From NCBI RefSeq assembly GCF_024347455.1, contig NZ_AP025484.1, positions 1,736,001 through 1,800,000 on the forward strand: 64,000 nucleotides of DNA. The letters are read 5' to 3'. Below the pieces are notes generated by a model. It made no database searches and had not been told where the DNA came from. It saw nothing but the letters and a program-made list of their open reading frames with translations. The position numbers and the translations under genes are program-made. The first letter of the stretch is position 1, and the number at the start of each line of letters is the position of its first letter. Source of the DNA: Vibrio echinoideorum. GTDB lineage: Bacteria > Pseudomonadota > Gammaproteobacteria > Enterobacterales > Vibrionaceae. Below, piece by piece: positions 46,570 to 54,510 of this stretch.

Positions 46570-48045
46570 TTAATCAATCAACACCAATGAATCGAGAATA
46601 CCTTTTCCGCTGTGGATCCCGCCTTCGTTTTCACTGGCTGGTTTGCTGCGGATTAGGTAGCCCGCGTAACCATCTAGCTCGGTAACGGGTTTGCCTTGAT
46701 AGTAAGCGGTGAATAGGCCGACTTCGCTGACTAAGTCTGTCACTAGCGTTTGCTGAGTGTCACGAACGGCAATGGTAGGTACGTCACGTTCGTGTGGGTA
46801 CAAGCGTTGCATCAATGCCCATGCATCGTATTCTTCTGGTTCAAGTTGGCTCAGTTTTTCACTGATATCGTCACCAAATACACAATGGCCACCGCCCTCG
46901 CCTTGGTTTTTCAGCACCCACTCTTGCTTGTCGGCTTGCGTGTTAAACCATTCAATCGATCCACTGGTGATTGGTTTCATGTCCGCCAATACACTCTTCA
47001 CCAATTCAGCCTCTTCTAGGGTTAAACCCCAACGTCCGTATTCTGACGCAAGCATCATGGTCAGCAACATTTGCATGGTTTTACTGGTGGCGAGTTGTTG
47101 GCTTATCGTCGCATTCATTGCCACATGATGCTGCTCGATGAACAAGCGAGTTTGGCTAAGCGTATGACAACAAATAGACTCGTTTAGCTCTGGAGCCCAA
47201 TAGTCAGAATACTGATAGCCAGCGCGCAGATACACCACATCAATAGCGCCAATGCCTTCGAGCAATAAACGCTTGTTATCGCCTGAAGAAAGCTGAGAGC
47301 TGAGCTGCTCAAAGGTACGTCGAACCGTGCGAACACCCTGCTTCTGCAGTTCCACTTCAAGTAAGTGTTGGTCATACACATTGTCTTCATTCTTCTGCAC
47401 CACCATCAAAAATGTTGGTTTTTCAGGAGCATTTTTGTCTGAACAATTGAAGTCCGCTCTCACCTTTCTCGCAGAAGTCGCAATACCGAAAGCCAACTGT
47501 TCAAGACCTTGGTTTCCTGCCGAAGCCACCGATTTATCTTCCAACCATTTTTGGTAAGTTTCAGGCCATTGATTTTGCATATAGGCATGAAACTCTGTCG
47601 CTTTCTGGCCAAACGGAGCCATGCCTGCCGCAATACCATTAAACTCAATCACTTTTGCACCGTGTTGACGGTCATCCATGAAATCAGTGCGCATTAACAA
47701 CAGTGGCTGACGAGCAGGATTCAAGCGTTCATCAGCACTGCCATGCGCTTGTAAGTGCAGCTCCATCAAACGACCAAAAAACGGGTCAGCCTTAGCCATA
47801 TCGCTCAATGATGACTGCAAGAAGTCATGATCCTCAGAGACGTTACTCACCAACTTAGTCATCAGAGGCGTAACCTTACGTAAGTGCTCATATACCTTAC
47901 GTTCCATTGTCATTGGTGCGATACTGAAAGGACAATGCCTCGCCGTATTATCGGCCTGACGGAAAGCGACACCATGCATAATTGCCCATTCGCAAGCGTC
48001 TTCAATCGTTTGTTGTGAAATCAATGATGCTTTTTCGATATTCAT
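46570..48045 (-). CDS. eukaryotic-type glutathione synthetase-family ATP-grasp ligase
   Basis: A 491-residue homologue of eukaryotic glutathione synthetase, unrelated in layout to bacterial GshB. Shared blocks are VIEFNGIAAG (human QIEIN), NVYDQHLLEVELQKQGV, VRRTFEQLS, VVYLRAGY (as in plant enzymes), VLKNQGEGGGHCVFGDD (Gly-rich ATP loop) and YLIRSKPASENEGG. The enzyme should add an amino acid to gamma-glutamylcysteine using ATP. The acceptor loop reads IHSG at residues 477-480 where glycine-specific enzymes have VAAG. ATG 48045 is used, with GAGAG upstream, rather than TTG 48060. It is the last gene of the gshA-ABC-ABC operon, 61 bp after the second transporter gene. Confidence 0.9.
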   Translation of the reverse strand: MNIEKASLISQQTIEDACEWAIMHGVAFRQADNTARHCPFSIAPMTMERKVYEHLRKVTPLMTKLVSNVSEDHDFLQSSLSDMAKADPFFGRLMELHLQAHGSADERLNPARQPLLLMRTDFMDDRQHGAKVIEFNGIAAGMAPFGQKATEFHAYMQNQWPETYQKWLEDKSVASAGNQGLEQLAFGIATSARKVRADFNCSDKNAPEKPTFLMVVQKNEDNVYDQHLLEVELQKQGVRTVRRTFEQLSSQLSSGDNKRLLLEGIGAIDVVYLRAGYQYSDYWAPELNESICCHTLSQTRLFIEQHHVAMNATISQQLATSKTMQMLLTMMLASEYGRWGLTLEEAELVKSVLADMKPITSGSIEWFNTQADKQEWVLKNQGEGGGHCVFGDDISEKLSQLEPEEYDAWALMQRLYPHERDVPTIAVRDTQQTLVTDLVSEVGLFTAYYQGKPVTELDGYAGYLIRSKPASENEGGIHSGKGILDSLVLID

Positions 48046-48106
48046 TATTTTTACTCTCAAGTATTAATGATTAGCCGTGTCATTCTTCTAATAACACGCC
48101 CATCAA

Positions 48107-49963
48107 CTATGCTGTGGCAGCCGACAATCCTAGCTTGCTGCTTAGGTGTTCTTGTTCTTCTTGCGCCTTTTGGGCTAGATATAAATCACGGTAGTCGCCA
48201 TCTTGAGCAACCAATTCGTGATGCGTGCCGCTTTGAACAATTCGCCCTTTGTTCATCACCAAAATTTGGTCAGCGTGTTTGATCGTTGAAAGTCGGTGCG
48301 CCACCGTTATAACCGTTCTGCCTTCTTGGATTTTCTCTAATGCTATCTTCACTGCCTCTTCCGTATCACTATCAATGTTAGCGGTGGCCTCATCTAACAG
48401 GAAGATTTTAGGATCATGCGAGAGCGCTCTTGCTAACGCCAACAGCTGTTTCTCACCAACGGAAAACGAAGCTCCACCGTGACTAGGTTGATGGTCATAA
48501 CCATTGGTTAAACGTTCAATAAATGAGTGCGCTTTGACTTGTTTCGCAGCATCGATAACCTTGGTTCTTGCTGCTCGCTCACGTTCAGCTAGGTAGCTTC
48601 CAGACAGGTCTATGTTCTCAAGCACTGAACCACTGAATATGGTCGGGTCTTGAGACACTAAACCAAACAGTTGCCGTAGTTGCTCCTCTGGGAATGCCGA
48701 TAAAGGTTGTCCCCCCACCAAAATTGCACCCTTTTGATGATCGTAGAAACGCATCAATAGGTTTATCACCGAACTTTTACCACTTCCGCTATGACCAACA
48801 ATCGCTGTGAATTGGCCACTTTTAGCCGTAAAACTGACGTCGTTGAGTACTAGCGAACCTTCTTCATAGCTTAATTGAACATCTTTAAACTCAATGTCAT
48901 ACGGCTCTGAAACCTCGACCAACCGGTGAGAATATCGATGATGTTCCGATTCATCATCCAGCAGCTCGAATACACGCTTAGAAGAAACCGTCGCCACCTG
49001 TAGCTTTCTTAGTTCCATGGATAACTGGCGGAATGGGTCGAAAAATCGTTCTATATAGTTAAGAAAAGCATACAAAGTACCGACTTCAACGACCGTGCTA
49101 AACGAAGCACCAGCAAACCAAGCCACAATGCCCGCAGCCGTTAATGTAGAGACTAAACGAGTGAGCGGGATCAGCATGAAGCTGTCTATTGCGATCGATT
49201 TGGCTCTAAATTCAAACCAGCTTTGGTTTTCTTTTTCAAACTTTTCTTTAAACGACTTTTGCTGGCGGAAAGCTTGAATAAGCGCCATTCCCTGCAAAGA
49301 TTCATTCAATCGACCGTTGATGTTACTCACTTGAATGCGAATACCATCAAATACTGGCATCGAAATTTTTCGATACAAATGCATGGTCATCAGCAGAATT
49401 GGGATCAGCACTAAACTCAATAGCATCAAACGCCAATCAAGTAGTGCAATAGCAATGAAGATCACCGTAATACGTAGTGCACCTTGGATAATAGTCGGAA
49501 ACGTAGAAACAAACATGTTGCGCATCGCTTCGGTATCATTGGTGATGTACGACACCAGTTTACCCGCCGCTAACTTATCAAAAGTATTGATTGGAAAGTT
49601 GAGCACATGGCTAAACAATTCTCGGCGAATATCATTAACCACCAGCAGTGCACTATGACGGAATGTGACAGCCTGCAGGTAAGTAAACAGGGCGGCAATG
49701 ACGTAAAACATCATCACTCCCCCAATTAATATAGCAAGGTGTTGCAACTCAAATGTCTGAGGAACAATCACATCGTCCAAGATAATTTTAGCGAGCCATG
49801 GGATCGCCATCTCAGCACTCACGGCAACGGTCAACATCGCAAAGGCTAAGATAAAACGTGCTTTATGTGGCAATGAATAAGCCAACAACCGACGGTACAT
49901 TGAATTGGCCTTCATATCTGTTTGGCTTTGAGACCGTTGAGTTTTTTGTGTTGGCTTAAACAT
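48107..49963 (-). CDS. MdlB-like ABC exporter half-transporter (catalytic subunit)
   Basis: A 618-residue half-transporter: six membrane segments (residues about 30-330) then an ATPase domain. Walker A is GHSGSGKSS and Walker B FLLDEATANID with the catalytic Glu. The switch His is present (VAHRLSTI). The signature loop is FSVGEKQ instead of LSGGQ. It resembles E. coli MdlB. The start is ATG 49963, which overlaps the first transporter's stop (ATGTTTAA) and has GGGAG at proper spacing; the open frame upstream to 50128 is antisense-free but internal to the neighbour. It pairs with the MdlA-like protein and probably exports the product of the flanking ligases. Confidence 0.92.
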   Translation of the reverse strand: MFKPTQKTQRSQSQTDMKANSMYRRLLAYSLPHKARFILAFAMLTVAVSAEMAIPWLAKIILDDVIVPQTFELQHLAILIGGVMMFYVIAALFTYLQAVTFRHSALLVVNDIRRELFSHVLNFPINTFDKLAAGKLVSYITNDTEAMRNMFVSTFPTIIQGALRITVIFIAIALLDWRLMLLSLVLIPILLMTMHLYRKISMPVFDGIRIQVSNINGRLNESLQGMALIQAFRQQKSFKEKFEKENQSWFEFRAKSIAIDSFMLIPLTRLVSTLTAAGIVAWFAGASFSTVVEVGTLYAFLNYIERFFDPFRQLSMELRKLQVATVSSKRVFELLDDESEHHRYSHRLVEVSEPYDIEFKDVQLSYEEGSLVLNDVSFTAKSGQFTAIVGHSGSGKSSVINLLMRFYDHQKGAILVGGQPLSAFPEEQLRQLFGLVSQDPTIFSGSVLENIDLSGSYLAERERAARTKVIDAAKQVKAHSFIERLTNGYDHQPSHGGASFSVGEKQLLALARALSHDPKIFLLDEATANIDSDTEEAVKIALEKIQEGRTVITVAHRLSTIKHADQILVMNKGRIVQSGTHHELVAQDGDYRDLYLAQKAQEEQEHLSSKLGLSAATA

Positions 49964-51776
49964 AACTTGCTCCCGTTTCAACAGCCTTAGAATTAAACGT
50001 GTGAGCCGTTTCTGTAACATCGGTAGTGGTCTGAATATCGTCTTTACCGAGCTGGCTTTGACGTTGATAAACCATTGAATACCAACCTTGCTTAGCAACA
50101 AGTTCGTGGTGAGAGCCTTGCTCTTCAATTTGACCTTGGTTCAATACCAGAATATGGTCAGCTTCTATCAAGTTGGTTAAGCGTTGAGTGACCAACAACA
50201 TCGTTTTGTGGCCGTAATGCGCCTTTAAGTTTCGGCGAACCACCACTTCTGTTTTCATGTCCAACGCACTGAACGGGTCATCAAGCAATAAAATATCGGC
50301 ACCTGAAAGCAATGCTCTCGCAAGGGTTAATCTTTGCTTTTGACCTCCAGACAAATTATTACCACCTTCGCGTAGTTCAGTATCAAACCCATCAGCCATA
50401 GCTTCAATCTCAGCTTGAATACCAGCCATTTTCGCCACATGCTTAATCTCTTCATCGGTAGCGTCCGGCTTTGCTAACGCAATGTTTTCAGCAATCGTCC
50501 CTGAGAATAAAAATGGTTTTTGAGGAACCCACGTCACTTTGCTTCGCAACGAATCAAACGTCAGGTCATCGATCGAATTACCGTCCAATGCCATCTTCGA
50601 ATTTCCGTCCAACGGAAACTGCCTCATCAACAATTGCAACAGCGTACTCTTCCCACCACCAGTCGGGCCCGTAATGCCGACTAAACCGCCTTCACTCACG
50701 CTGAATTTGATCGCTTCTAACGTTCGTCTATTTGCACCTTGGTGAGTAAATGAATGAATGTTGACGTCAAGGCTTGATCTCACGTCGTCTGATAGGGTTT
50801 TTGTTCCTTCCGTTACGTCTTCTGGCTCTGATAGTAGGCTGTCGAGGCGTTCCCATGATTTACTGCCACGTTGGAATACATTGAACTGCCAACCAAACTG
50901 TAAGAATGGCCCTAGCAACTGACCAAGATACAAAGTGAACGTTGTGAACAAGCCCACCGTAATGCTGCCTTGCTCAATTAACCAAGCGCCATAACCCAAT
51001 GAAATCACAAACGACAAGCCATAAACCAATTGGATCGTTGGAGCAAATGCCGAATCCACCTTTGCCACTTTAAGGTTCGCTTCCAACGTCTCATCTAACG
51101 TCTTACCAAAACGTTGCTCTTGTCGTTGACCAATACCATGTGAACGGACGGCGCGAATACCAGCAACGGTTTCACGAGTCTCTTCGCTTAGTTCAGAGAA
51201 GCTCGCTTGCGCATGTCCAAAGGTGGTATGTAAACGAGCACCATAACGACGAGTAAAGTAAACCAACAACGGGAATGGTAATAACGCCACAGCGGTTAAG
51301 TGACCACTGACGACAAAAATCATCCCGAAGATCACGGTAAAACCAGCGATAAGAGAGTCAACCAGCGTCATGATGCCCATGCCTGTCGCCTCTTCCACTG
51401 CATTAAGATCATTAGTCGCATGCGCCATCAAATCTCCGGTACTGCGACGAGAATAAAATGATGGCGATAAGCGTGAGAACTTATGGAAAAGCTCGCTACG
51501 CATGACTCGTGTAATGCCAATCGCCGCGCCATAGAGTTTGCTCTGCCATACATAACGCAACCCGTACATGGCAAATGCCGAACCCGCTATACCACCCACA
51601 TAAAGCATGAGCAATGATAGAGTCAGTTCACCATCACTGATGCTATCAACGATGCGACCAATCAGCCATGAGGGTACTAGGTTGAACAATGCGACCACTT
51701 GTAAAACAACAAAGGCGATCAAATATTGGCGGCTGAACATTTTAATGTAGCCACGTAATTTCCAAAGAATATCCAT
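49956..51776 (-). CDS. MdlA-like ABC exporter half-transporter (degenerate-site subunit)
   Basis: A 606-residue half-transporter with six membrane segments and a C-terminal ATPase domain. It matches MdlA along its length, including FYSRRSTGDLMAHATNDLNA and VNIHSFTHQ. Walker A is GPTGGGKST, the signature is intact (NNLSGGQKQRL), but Walker B reads LLLDDPFSALD with Asp for the catalytic Glu, and the switch His is Gln (VTQRLTNL). With the partner's altered signature loop this predicts one weak and one normal ATP site. It starts six bases after the gshA stop, so it is probably translated by coupling. Inner membrane. Confidence 0.92.
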   Translation of the reverse strand: MDILWKLRGYIKMFSRQYLIAFVVLQVVALFNLVPSWLIGRIVDSISDGELTLSLLMLYVGGIAGSAFAMYGLRYVWQSKLYGAAIGITRVMRSELFHKFSRLSPSFYSRRSTGDLMAHATNDLNAVEEATGMGIMTLVDSLIAGFTVIFGMIFVVSGHLTAVALLPFPLLVYFTRRYGARLHTTFGHAQASFSELSEETRETVAGIRAVRSHGIGQRQEQRFGKTLDETLEANLKVAKVDSAFAPTIQLVYGLSFVISLGYGAWLIEQGSITVGLFTTFTLYLGQLLGPFLQFGWQFNVFQRGSKSWERLDSLLSEPEDVTEGTKTLSDDVRSSLDVNIHSFTHQGANRRTLEAIKFSVSEGGLVGITGPTGGGKSTLLQLLMRQFPLDGNSKMALDGNSIDDLTFDSLRSKVTWVPQKPFLFSGTIAENIALAKPDATDEEIKHVAKMAGIQAEIEAMADGFDTELREGGNNLSGGQKQRLTLARALLSGADILLLDDPFSALDMKTEVVVRRNLKAHYGHKTMLLVTQRLTNLIEADHILVLNQGQIEEQGSHHELVAKQGWYSMVYQRQSQLGKDDIQTTTDVTETAHTFNSKAVETGASYV

Positions 51777-51782
51777 AACTTG

Positions 51783-53414
51783 TTAAACCATCATTTCTTG
51801 TTGTTTGCAGTCGCGCTGTAGTTGATTTTGCTTTTTCAAAAAATCATCAAAGCTGATGTCTGGCTGCCTTTCCATTTGTTGTTGCTTGGAAAGCGATTCA
51901 TCAACCAACGCTGTTAAGTTGTCCATTTTTTCCGTCTCAACTTGGTGTTGCAAATGCACTAACAAGTGCTCATCAGAAAGACGTTGCATTAAGCCTTGAT
52001 GACTCAATCCTTGGTCTTTCATTTGTGCCAACAGTTTTGCCGAAGGGGTTAAGTCACTGTTTTGCAGTTTCATACGTTCACTGAAGATACTGGTTTGGTA
52101 TGAATCCGTAGAAAAAGCATCATCAAACAGCGCTGCTATTTGTTGGATAGCGTCCAACAGATCAAGCCCCAAAGTTTCTAATGACACTTCGCCTTCTAAT
52201 GTAGGAAGTGTTAAGTCCGGTTTTCGGCCTTGTGTTGCCACGAGTTCTTGACGTTGAACGACAATGGCGCGTTCCTCTTCGGTCAACTCGGGGCTTGGCG
52301 CTAATGCACTGTAAACCAGCAAAAGATCCAAAAAGTGGCTCTGCTCTTGCGCAATACCAAGTGGTAAATATGGATTGTTATCCATGCTGCGCAGCTCAAC
52401 ATACTGCACACCGTAATGACACATCGCATACAACGGACGCAGTGTATCGTTAACGATTTTTGGCCGCACCGAGCCATACAATTCGTTTTCCAGCTGTAAC
52501 ACAGAACCATTCATTTGCTGATCGATGTCTAGGTGCAAATAGCGCTCACTTGGACGAGTCAAAGCGTTATGCAAATCAGATAAATACTGCTGCCTGTTAT
52601 TAAAACTTATTGGGTACGATGACTGCTCATCACTGCTGTAACCGAGATTACTCAGACGCAATGATGTCGCCCACGGTAAGTAACAAGTCTCGTCATCAAA
52701 CACTTCAAGCGCATGTGCTTTGCCTTGCAAATAACTGTTATCTACCGCAGGGGAAGCACCAAATAAATAGGGTACTAACCAACCATGACGCAGCACGTTG
52801 CGAATCATATGAAAGTAGCGTTCAGAAACGAATGCTTCCAGAGGCATTTGAGCGACACTGCTATCGATACTCTTCTGGTGATCGTACAGCGCAATCCAAA
52901 ATGCTTCCGGCAGAGAAAAGTTGTAATGAATTCCAGAGATAAGCTGCATGCGTTTGCCATAACGATTGGCTAACCCTTCTCGATAACGTTTTTTCAGTAG
53001 GCCAGCATTCGAAGTGCCATAGCTAGCGATTCTAATCGCGTCCTCACTTTCCGTCTCATCATTCGGCAATTGTGGTGGCATGCTCGCGGCCCATAAGGTT
53101 TCACCTTCAGGTAAGCGAGCCGCAACAAAATGATGCAGTGAAGCAAGCGAATCGAATGTCGCGGTTCGATCATTCATCGCTGGAGTCACTAACTCTAACT
53201 GAGCCTCGGCAAAATCAGTGGTGATATAAGGGTGTGTGAGCGCAGAACCAAGTTCGACTGGATGAGTTTTATCTGAGATACCACCGGTCGCTTGTGTGCG
53301 AATTAACTCTCGTTCAATACCGCGCCGGATACCCGCCAAAGAAGCATGAACTTGTTCATTTTGTAGGAAGGAAGCAAGATTGGCTTCAATTTTTAATACT
53401 TGATTATTTTTCAT
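51783..53414 (-). CDS. gshA: glutamate-cysteine ligase, GshA type 1 paralogue
   Basis: A 543-residue ligase of the proteobacterial GshA family. ELGSALTHPYITTDFAEAQL, YGTSNAGLLKKRYREGL, NRYGKRMQLISGIHYNFSLP and ATSLRLSNLGY are the ATP and glutamate-binding blocks, and ENELYGSVRPK and VELRSMDNNPYLPLG follow as in E. coli. It joins L-glutamate and L-cysteine through the gamma-carboxyl. It is about 25 residues longer than E. coli GshA owing to a Gln/Lys-rich C-terminal tail (SKQQQMERQPDISFDDFL). It heads the operon, with a 160-bp AT-rich promoter region between it and a LysR gene on the same strand. Vibrios normally carry a housekeeping gshA elsewhere, so this is likely an accessory copy. Confidence 0.93.
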   Translation of the reverse strand: MKNNQVLKIEANLASFLQNEQVHASLAGIRRGIERELIRTQATGGISDKTHPVELGSALTHPYITTDFAEAQLELVTPAMNDRTATFDSLASLHHFVAARLPEGETLWAASMPPQLPNDETESEDAIRIASYGTSNAGLLKKRYREGLANRYGKRMQLISGIHYNFSLPEAFWIALYDHQKSIDSSVAQMPLEAFVSERYFHMIRNVLRHGWLVPYLFGASPAVDNSYLQGKAHALEVFDDETCYLPWATSLRLSNLGYSSDEQSSYPISFNNRQQYLSDLHNALTRPSERYLHLDIDQQMNGSVLQLENELYGSVRPKIVNDTLRPLYAMCHYGVQYVELRSMDNNPYLPLGIAQEQSHFLDLLLVYSALAPSPELTEEERAIVVQRQELVATQGRKPDLTLPTLEGEVSLETLGLDLLDAIQQIAALFDDAFSTDSYQTSIFSERMKLQNSDLTPSAKLLAQMKDQGLSHQGLMQRLSDEHLLVHLQHQVETEKMDNLTALVDESLSKQQQMERQPDISFDDFLKKQNQLQRDCKQQEMMV

Positions 53415-53574
53415 TGTTTCGTCTTAAAAAAGCTATAGCAACGTAATTAAGACGAGGCTCATAATAAAAAGACGAAATAAAAACAAAAAAATATCCAACA
53501 AGTTTCTAATTCGATATTTTTCTTTTAATTTTCAATAAGTAACTAATATTAACTCTTAATTATATTATCGTTTA

Positions 53575-54510
53575 TTATTGAATCTGTTCGATGATCAAAT
53601 CGCGAAGCCACTTATGGCTCGGCTCTGAATCGAAATATTTATGCCACAATAGGAACAAACCTCCCGGTACCAAATCGACCGGAACAGGCTTCATCACCAA
53701 CTCTCCGCTATCAATGTAATCGCGTACCGAGTTGTATGGATAACACATCAGCAAATCACTCTGCTTACACAATTTAATGGCGCTGGTAATGTCTGACACG
53801 TTAGCGGCTTTATTGATTTCCAACTGCTTAGAGTTCAGCACTTCCATCAATAGCCAATCCCCCGCTCCGCCCGTCACCAACTGTATGTGTCGATACTTCA
53901 AGAAGGTGTCGAGGTTCCACTCTTCCTTTAACGCCGGATGGTCATTTCGCATAAAACACACAGAATAGTCCAAGCACAGTTCTACGTAATCCAGATCATC
54001 GGGAATACACTGCACATGGGTAGATGCTCGCTCATCCAGCTCAAAAATACCGATGCCAAAATCCACTTCACGTTTTAGCAAACGCTTGAAGCTGTCGCTG
54101 CTCCACGTTGAGCTGTTGATGGTAATGTGAGGCGCCTCCGCAAGAGCAGTCGGCATAAAGTGCGGATAAATCGCGGTGTAGGCGGTTTCGACAAGGTCTA
54201 TAGTGAAGGTACGCTCACTGGCTTTAGGATCAAAAACTTCGGGAACGGTCAGCTTTTCAATTTGCAGTAGGATTTGGTGGACCTTAGGTGCCAAAGCGAG
54301 TGCTTTGGGCGTTGGGAACAACCCCTTTGATTCTCGCTCAAACAGCGGATCATCAAACAAAGCTCTGAGTTTAGTGAGCTGTTTACTTACCGCTGACTGG
54401 CTCAAAAAGAGTCGATCTGCCGTTTTGCTCACACTTCGTTCTTCAATAAGAACGTGTAAGCAAAGCAGCAAATTCATATCGCATTTAAGTAAGCTTTTCA
54501 CATCTACCAT
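53575..54510 (-). CDS. LysR-family regulator upstream of the glutathione cassette
   Basis: A 311-residue LysR protein. The helix-turn-helix is RSVSKTADRLFLSQSAVSKQ, followed by LRALFDDPLFERESKGLFPT, and the C-terminus reads GGLFLLWHKYFDSEPSHKWL, the LeuO/NodD-like clade seen twice more in this window. It lies between the gshA cassette (same strand, 160 bp downstream) and adenosine deaminase (divergent, 120 bp). It could regulate either. Its ligand is unknown. Confidence 0.88.
   Translation of the reverse strand: MVDVKSLLKCDMNLLLCLHVLIEERSVSKTADRLFLSQSAVSKQLTKLRALFDDPLFERESKGLFPTPKALALAPKVHQILLQIEKLTVPEVFDPKASERTFTIDLVETAYTAIYPHFMPTALAEAPHITINSSTWSSDSFKRLLKREVDFGIGIFELDERASTHVQCIPDDLDYVELCLDYSVCFMRNDHPALKEEWNLDTFLKYRHIQLVTGGAGDWLLMEVLNSKQLEINKAANVSDITSAIKLCKQSDLLMCYPYNSVRDYIDSGELVMKPVPVDLVPGGLFLLWHKYFDSEPSHKWLRDLIIEQIQ

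Follow-up and report, generated by a model that had tools for sequence, protein, structure and literature searches.

Here we describe a four-gene cassette from Vibrio echinoideorum, together with a promoter-like motif that links it to SigZ, an extracytoplasmic function (ECF) sigma factor. The cassette lies in a 64-kb stretch (64,000 nucleotides, hereafter the window) within contig C2 of a genome of 5.74 Mb in 4 contigs. Reading of the open reading frames (ORFs) places four same-strand genes at 46570-53414 of the window, all on the minus strand: gshA2 (51783..53414), encoding a glutamate-cysteine ligase of 543 amino acids (aa); abcA (49956..51776; 606 aa) and abcB (48107..49963), encoding two ATP-binding cassette (ABC) half-exporters; and gss (46570..48045), encoding an ATP-grasp ligase resembling eukaryotic-type glutathione synthetase. 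The longest ORFs of abcB and gss start at TTG codons (50128 and 48060, respectively), and with their likely ATG starts, at 49963 and 48045, the intergenic gaps are 6, -8 and 61 bp. The motif, CGTCTTTTTATTATGAGCCTCGTCTTA, is situated 33 bp ahead of gshA2 (53448..53474, minus strand) and is proposed to be a SigZ-type promoter. A first-pass annotation, made from the sequence alone, had already reported these gene identities, which Pfam and NCBIfam models bore out, and the same gene order, gaps and overlap, which the ORFs confirmed.

GshA2 carries PF04262 (445 bits), scores above the equivalog cut-off of TIGR01434 (478.9 vs 393.3 bits) and aligns almost end to end with its best solved match, the E. 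coli enzyme 1v4g, with retention of the catalytic residues. Gss contains both PF03917 (197.5 bits) and PF03199 (75.9 bits), each above its cut-off, and its AlphaFold model and fold matches place it in the eukaryotic glutathione synthase fold. In a hand-read alignment, the residues equivalent to human R125, E144, N146, E214, N216, Q220, R267, Y270, K305, K364, E368, E425, R450 and K452, which we take to be those contacting ATP, Mg and gamma-Glu-Cys, are all conserved, while S149, S151 and R367 are not. The genome encodes another PF04262 protein (gshA at C1:548804), to which GshA2 is 39% identical, as well as a GshB-type ATP-grasp protein (C1:474999; 271.6 bits) and a weaker one (C2:327277; 71.3 bits). 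The cassette is thus an extra set besides the other gshA and gshB-type genes, as had been claimed initially.

Both half-transporters contain the ABC_membrane and ABC_tran domains, and their nearest solved structures are B. subtilis YheI for AbcA and YheH for AbcB. In AbcA, Walker B is followed by LLLDD and the LSGGQ signature is intact, whereas AbcB has LLLDE and a signature changed to SVGEK, so that one ATP site of the pair looks degenerate, a feature also found in other heterodimeric exporters. Export is the predicted direction of transport because of ABC family membership.

We then asked how widely this arrangement is kept. A pattern scan in which each species was represented by a single genome found 74 loci with Gss relatives, in Vibrio, Photobacterium, Aliivibrio, Enterovibrio, Thaumasiovibrio, Shewanella, Moritella, Psychromonas, Ferrimonas and others. 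PF03917 occurred in 115 of the 296 Vibrionaceae genomes sampled and in 10 of 398 sampled across the phylum, the genome under study being included in each count. The 111 gss neighbourhoods compared here come from 105 of those 115 Vibrionaceae genomes. The genome under study was left aside, and so were nine genomes whose hits scored lower, most of these hits being short or split and two nearly full-length; since loci were sampled by gss search, ABC pairs are seen only where gss is present. The complete gshA2-abcA-abcB-gss order was found in 27 loci from several genera, abcA-abcB-gss only in 10, a decayed gshA2 in four (one of these also without abcA) and neither gshA2 nor ABC genes in 63; the remaining seven, at contig ends, were uninformative. 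On the gss tree, which was built by FastTree only and has its long branches flagged, ABC presence changes at least 17 times, and full and solo loci can be close sisters, as in the window and L195, whose gss genes are 96% identical. The decayed gshA2 copies show losses. The unit is therefore conserved but modular, with more than chance linkage: the linkage across genomes that the first-pass annotation had named as a check holds, the lack of a conserved gene order by which it would have been refuted is not seen, its notion of a self-contained cassette is not supported as worded, and what stands of its interpretation overall is the gene identities, the extra set, the conserved linkage and a plausible make-and-export logic. 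Neither the motif and SigZ association described below, which point to thiol stress, nor the altered acceptor loop of Gss had been part of it.

Comparing the space ahead of the first gene, in full and solo loci alike, uncovered two CGTCTT blocks, 20 bp start to start, in the form CGTCTTTT-N12-CGTCTTA (consensus over 76 units: (T/G)CGTCTTTT-N12-CGTCTTA). The copy at 53448-53474 is the sole match with up to one mismatch in the window and the sole exact match in its genome. Among relatives, a close form precedes 73 of 104 units, including 39 of the 41 with ABC genes; it heads the unit whichever gene is first, and in several loci sigZ and patB are preceded by it as well. A count over 23 hand-picked genomes gave 50 occurrences of the exact 13-base form, as compared to 3 for the pattern read backward. 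Outside Vibrionaceae, 10 of 13 loci contain a copy with at most one mismatch, in most cases ahead of gss or its sigZ.

This motif is associated with the sigma factor SigZ. The SigZ of this genome (C2:292028-292540) exceeds the equivalog cut-off of TIGR02959 (190.4 vs 168.65 bits), and three cassette-linked sigma factors satisfy both NF007215 and TIGR02959. Counted at E <= 1e-40, with only 11 candidates scored in most genomes, SigZ occurs in 147 of the 296 Vibrionaceae genomes (143 reach the curated cut-off), and the exact motif in 143, against 6 for the backward control pattern (table read by eye). The two occur together in 128 genomes, the motif alone in 15, SigZ alone in 19 and neither in 134 (odds ratio 60; p = 2e-44, a value that is overstated because the genomes are related). 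All 28 full-cassette genomes, the present one included, have SigZ, and SigZ is encoded inside the fetched stretch at 29 of 41 ABC-bearing loci vs 4 of 63 solo loci. Moreover, the motif is found ahead of 72 of 88 units in SigZ genomes vs 1 of 16 in SigZ-less genomes, and for ABC-bearing units these numbers are 39 of 39 and 0 of 2, respectively. Relatedness was considered by taking independent pairs from the gss tree: in 11 pairs differing in SigZ, the motif agrees in about 6, disagrees in none and shows no difference in about 5 (median sign test 0.03), and motif and ABC presence agree in about 7 pairs and disagree in none (0.016). Among the matches listed, 44 of 150 motif hits have a listed SigZ gene no more than 3 kb away, with 0.16 expected, and 21 of these 44 are in genomes without gss.

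To see which other genes carry the motif, those following motif hits were read in 30 regions of hand-picked genomes. A glutathione S-transferase (GST)-type protein, often with a Cys-rich tail, is encoded behind the motif in 10 regions, glutathione reductase as the next or next-but-one gene in seven, and a PatB-family C-S lyase in six, with one mismatch in the copy of the present genome (L281). In five regions a sodium:dicarboxylate-family transporter is followed by a coenzyme A (CoA)-disulfide reductase; this transporter, which resembles the cystine importer TcyP, reaches no NCBIfam cut-off. The assignments of PatB (354.5 vs 340 bits), glutathione reductase (758.2 vs 480) and CoA-disulfide reductase (575.4 vs 458) are above their cut-offs. 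Less frequent were SigZ (two regions), a 2Fe-2S ferredoxin-like protein (one) and a YheO-like regulator accompanied by a Rid protein (one). L280 and L305 have no convincing gene behind the motif and L306 a short ORF only; two motifs (L283, plus strand, and one in L301) have no ORF within 450 bp. The L301 motif in question was nonetheless assigned a ferredoxin-like gene, and the motif of L277 a GST gene. The other motif-bearing genes are thiol genes, and this company provides an argument for thiol handling by the cassette that does not depend on its gene content.

Several observations touch on the same genes. PatB-family C-S lyase genes are directly linked to gss units in L031, L033, L036, L042, L049, L051, L139 and L148, and several of these have their own motif copy. 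In L286 the motif lies about 400 bp ahead of the YheO-like regulator gene, with the Rid-family gene next; Rid proteins clear enamines such as those released by C-S lyases. The small 2Fe-2S ferredoxin-like protein recurs near SigZ, GST or the motif (L301, L318, L322 and L287).

Given these associations, we lean towards the view that the cassette is the synthesis-and-export arm of a SigZ-driven thiol-stress regulon, exporting a gamma-Glu-Cys-X peptide or its adducts. We infer that the motif is a SigZ promoter and defines the SigZ targets, and likewise infer the product, the cargo and the trigger. In this scheme SigZ would drive the cassette from the motif at 53448-53474, GshA2 would form gamma-Glu-Cys, and Gss would append glycine or some other amino compound as the third residue, yielding a glutathione-type peptide, which the AbcA/AbcB heterodimer would move out of the cytoplasm as such, as the disulfide or as electrophile or metal(loid) adducts. 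The motif would thereby supply SigZ with concrete, testable targets: a thiol regulon carried by roughly half of the Vibrionaceae genomes sampled, and within it a conserved operon coupling peptide-thiol synthesis to an exporter pair.

Several results weigh against this view. On the regulatory side, the exact motif is missing from 19 of the 147 SigZ genomes and present in 15 of the 149 SigZ-less ones; 16 of the 88 units in SigZ genomes are without the motif, none of these 16 having linked ABC genes; and of the 11 independent pairs only about 3 show SigZ and ABC presence in agreement, with none disagreeing (p 0.25). The genome under study has just the exact cassette copy and the mismatched patB copy, and no motif ahead of its own sigZ. 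As for the proteins, Gss stays below the equivalog cut-off of TIGR01986 (246.6 vs 329.8 bits), the ABC pair is similar to multidrug exporters and scores below the thiol-exporter cut-offs, and gshA2 and the ABC genes are often absent from the gss loci of relatives.

Glutathione or a variant of it is the best reading of the product. The acceptor loop of Gss is I477-H478-S479 (numbering of the 491-aa form), as compared to Val-Ala-Ala in human glutathione synthetase (GS), and His-Ser occupies both acceptor positions in 114 of the 116 family members examined, in place of the Ala-Ala of a glycine loop. Gss also carries C292-C293 (same numbering), a Cys-Cys insertion absent from the eukaryotic chains aligned. 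Because the loop is Ile-His-Ser and not Val-Ala-Ala, the third residue, X, may be other than glycine; if so, vibrios produce an unrecognised low-molecular-weight thiol. We give about even chances to the opposite, that Gss is, its loop notwithstanding, an ordinary glutathione synthetase with glycine as acceptor and that the unit only boosts glutathione, which is compatible with a SigZ-driven synthesis-and-export arm. The conserved catalytic and gamma-Glu-Cys residues speak for a glycine-using enzyme, and so do nematode Clade 2 enzymes, which vary at these sites and are reported to still favour glycine (PMC5919673). The near-invariant His-Ser pair speaks against it, as does the acceptor choice of plant and yeast enzymes, which these positions affect.

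The surroundings of sigZ bear on the possible trigger of the proposed regulon. In this genome the sigZ ORF and an ORF for an ArsR-type protein with a Cys-rich tail overlap, and sigZ faces the gene of an ArsP-type permease (L307:3502-5738; G000:C2:292001-294237). ArsR adjoins SigZ in 8 of 21 loci (20 hand-picked and our own), a similar arrangement is present in 7 of the 20 hand-picked loci, and elsewhere sigZ adjoins the cassette or a GST gene. This SigZ and the cassette-linked SigZ bear C-terminal cysteines. Since sigZ lies beside the ArsR-type gene and the ArsP-type permease gene, metal(loid) or thiol-reactive stress would be the likeliest trigger, metal(loid) input for this lineage being a guess. 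A more specific version, to which we attach a rather low probability, makes the cassette a bacterial counterpart of the glutathione S-conjugate (GS-X) pump: SigZ would be freed by ArsR-type or thiol sensing, X would be a residue other than glycine set by the His-Ser loop, metal(loid) or electrophile adducts would leave via AbcAB, and the Cys-Cys pair of Gss would be a thiol or metalloid switch.

Alternatively, AbcAB could be a multidrug-type exporter of non-thiol cargo, merely co-regulated with gss, while Gss and GshA2 only top up glutathione. This would agree with YheI/YheH as the closest solved relatives and with SmdA/SmdB as the nearest models for both subunits, even though the equivalog cut-offs NF008055 and NF008056 of SmdAB/MdlAB were not reached (552.5 vs 845 and 475.9 vs 746 bits). 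We consider it unlikely because 27 of 111 loci keep the ABC pair flanked by gshA2 and gss, and because of the thiol genes that share the motif.

Concerning the motif, it might be the site of a dimeric activator or repressor, with SigZ as a fellow target. Near-identical blocks with a 20-bp period are as expected for a dimeric protein, the motif occurs in those 15 SigZ-less genomes, and sigZ itself is preceded by it in several loci. We nevertheless find such a regulator doubtful: only 2 of 24 genomes with gss but without SigZ have the exact motif, its position just ahead of start codons fits a promoter, CGTC is a common ECF -10 core, and the neighbouring gene for a LysR-type regulator (53575..54510, minus strand; PF00126/PF03466), probably not part of the unit, is limited to one clade, whereas the motif spans genera and families. 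Least probable of all is the form given in the first-pass annotation, in which gamma-Glu-Cys-X would be secreted as a free thiol and serve outside the cytoplasm in redox buffering, metal handling, signalling or host interaction. This would suit synthesis genes in one operon with an exporter pair but sits poorly with the disulfide reductases, GST and C-S lyase that share the motif, which seem to be defence proteins acting inside the cell; no extracellular partner or receptor turned up, none having been searched for.

The proposed SigZ-driven arm resembles several known systems in part. The eukaryotic GS and homoglutathione synthetase (hGS) chains (human 2hgs, yeast 1m0w, potato 5oes, soybean 3kal) have V-A-A (GS) or V-L-P (hGS) where Gss has I-H-S, and differ from it in the Cys-Cys insertion and the missed TIGR01986 cut-off. 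GshA2 matches E. coli-type GshA in its TIGR01434 score and near end-to-end alignment, but it is a second copy in an operon with an exporter. Like YheI/YheH (BmrCD) and SmdAB/MdlAB, AbcA and AbcB are adjacent half-transporters with one ATP site degenerate by sequence; unlike these, they are embedded between thiol-synthesis genes and remain below the SmdA/SmdB cut-offs. Export of a low-molecular-weight thiol, here proposed, is shared with CydDC, whereas neither subunit reaches the CydD or CydC cut-offs (TIGR02857, at most 271.2 vs 435 bits; TIGR02868, 228.9 vs 329.05). In the thiol regulon of Streptomyces SigR an ECF sigma factor likewise governs thiol synthesis and thiol-redox genes; the SigZ set has a different sigma family, promoter and genes, and we know of no exporter operon of this kind. 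In the eukaryotic GS-X pump pathway, MRP/Ycf1 export glutathione adducts; the logic of thiol synthesis, GST and ABC adduct export (the last proposed here) is similar, whereas the cassette is a bacterial operon with ABCB/MdlAB-type half-transporters and an ECF sigma link. Search listings of the open-licence literature, as opposed to full texts, returned neither a paper on SigZ in vibrios nor a description of this cassette.

Some candidates were set aside. The LysR-type gene was rejected as cassette regulator and taken as synteny, as it stands beside gss only in splendidus-type loci: among the relatives, the same LysR gene precedes gss in 24 loci where neither gshA2 nor ABC genes are linked (22 solo, 2 edge) and stands ahead of one full cassette, as it adjoins the cassette in the window. 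Neighbouring MgtE genes (six loci) and betaine-transporter-like genes (a few loci, read by eye) were considered too local. A low-salt lead was not used as evidence, as it concerns a 'GshB', A0J47_RS17020, that we take to be a prokaryote-type ATP-grasp protein and not this gss, because its neighbour RS17025 is a QEGLA-motif protein and the QEGLA-type cluster includes such an enzyme. That gene, on chromosome II of Photobacterium damselae, is reported to be up 38-fold at 1% NaCl (PMC10308900).

Lastly, two side observations concern gss itself. Thirteen loci (L121, L122, L127, L142, L147, L157, L170, L187, L212, L224, L227, L228 and L229) have a more divergent gss group, 46-54% identical by tblastn, without linked gshA2 or ABC genes, and three genomes (G420, G424 and G428) have both this divergent gss and a full cassette. 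In L063 and at G469:C6:69415-71427 one open frame (686 and 689 aa) seems to span gss and SigZ, a possible natural fusion.

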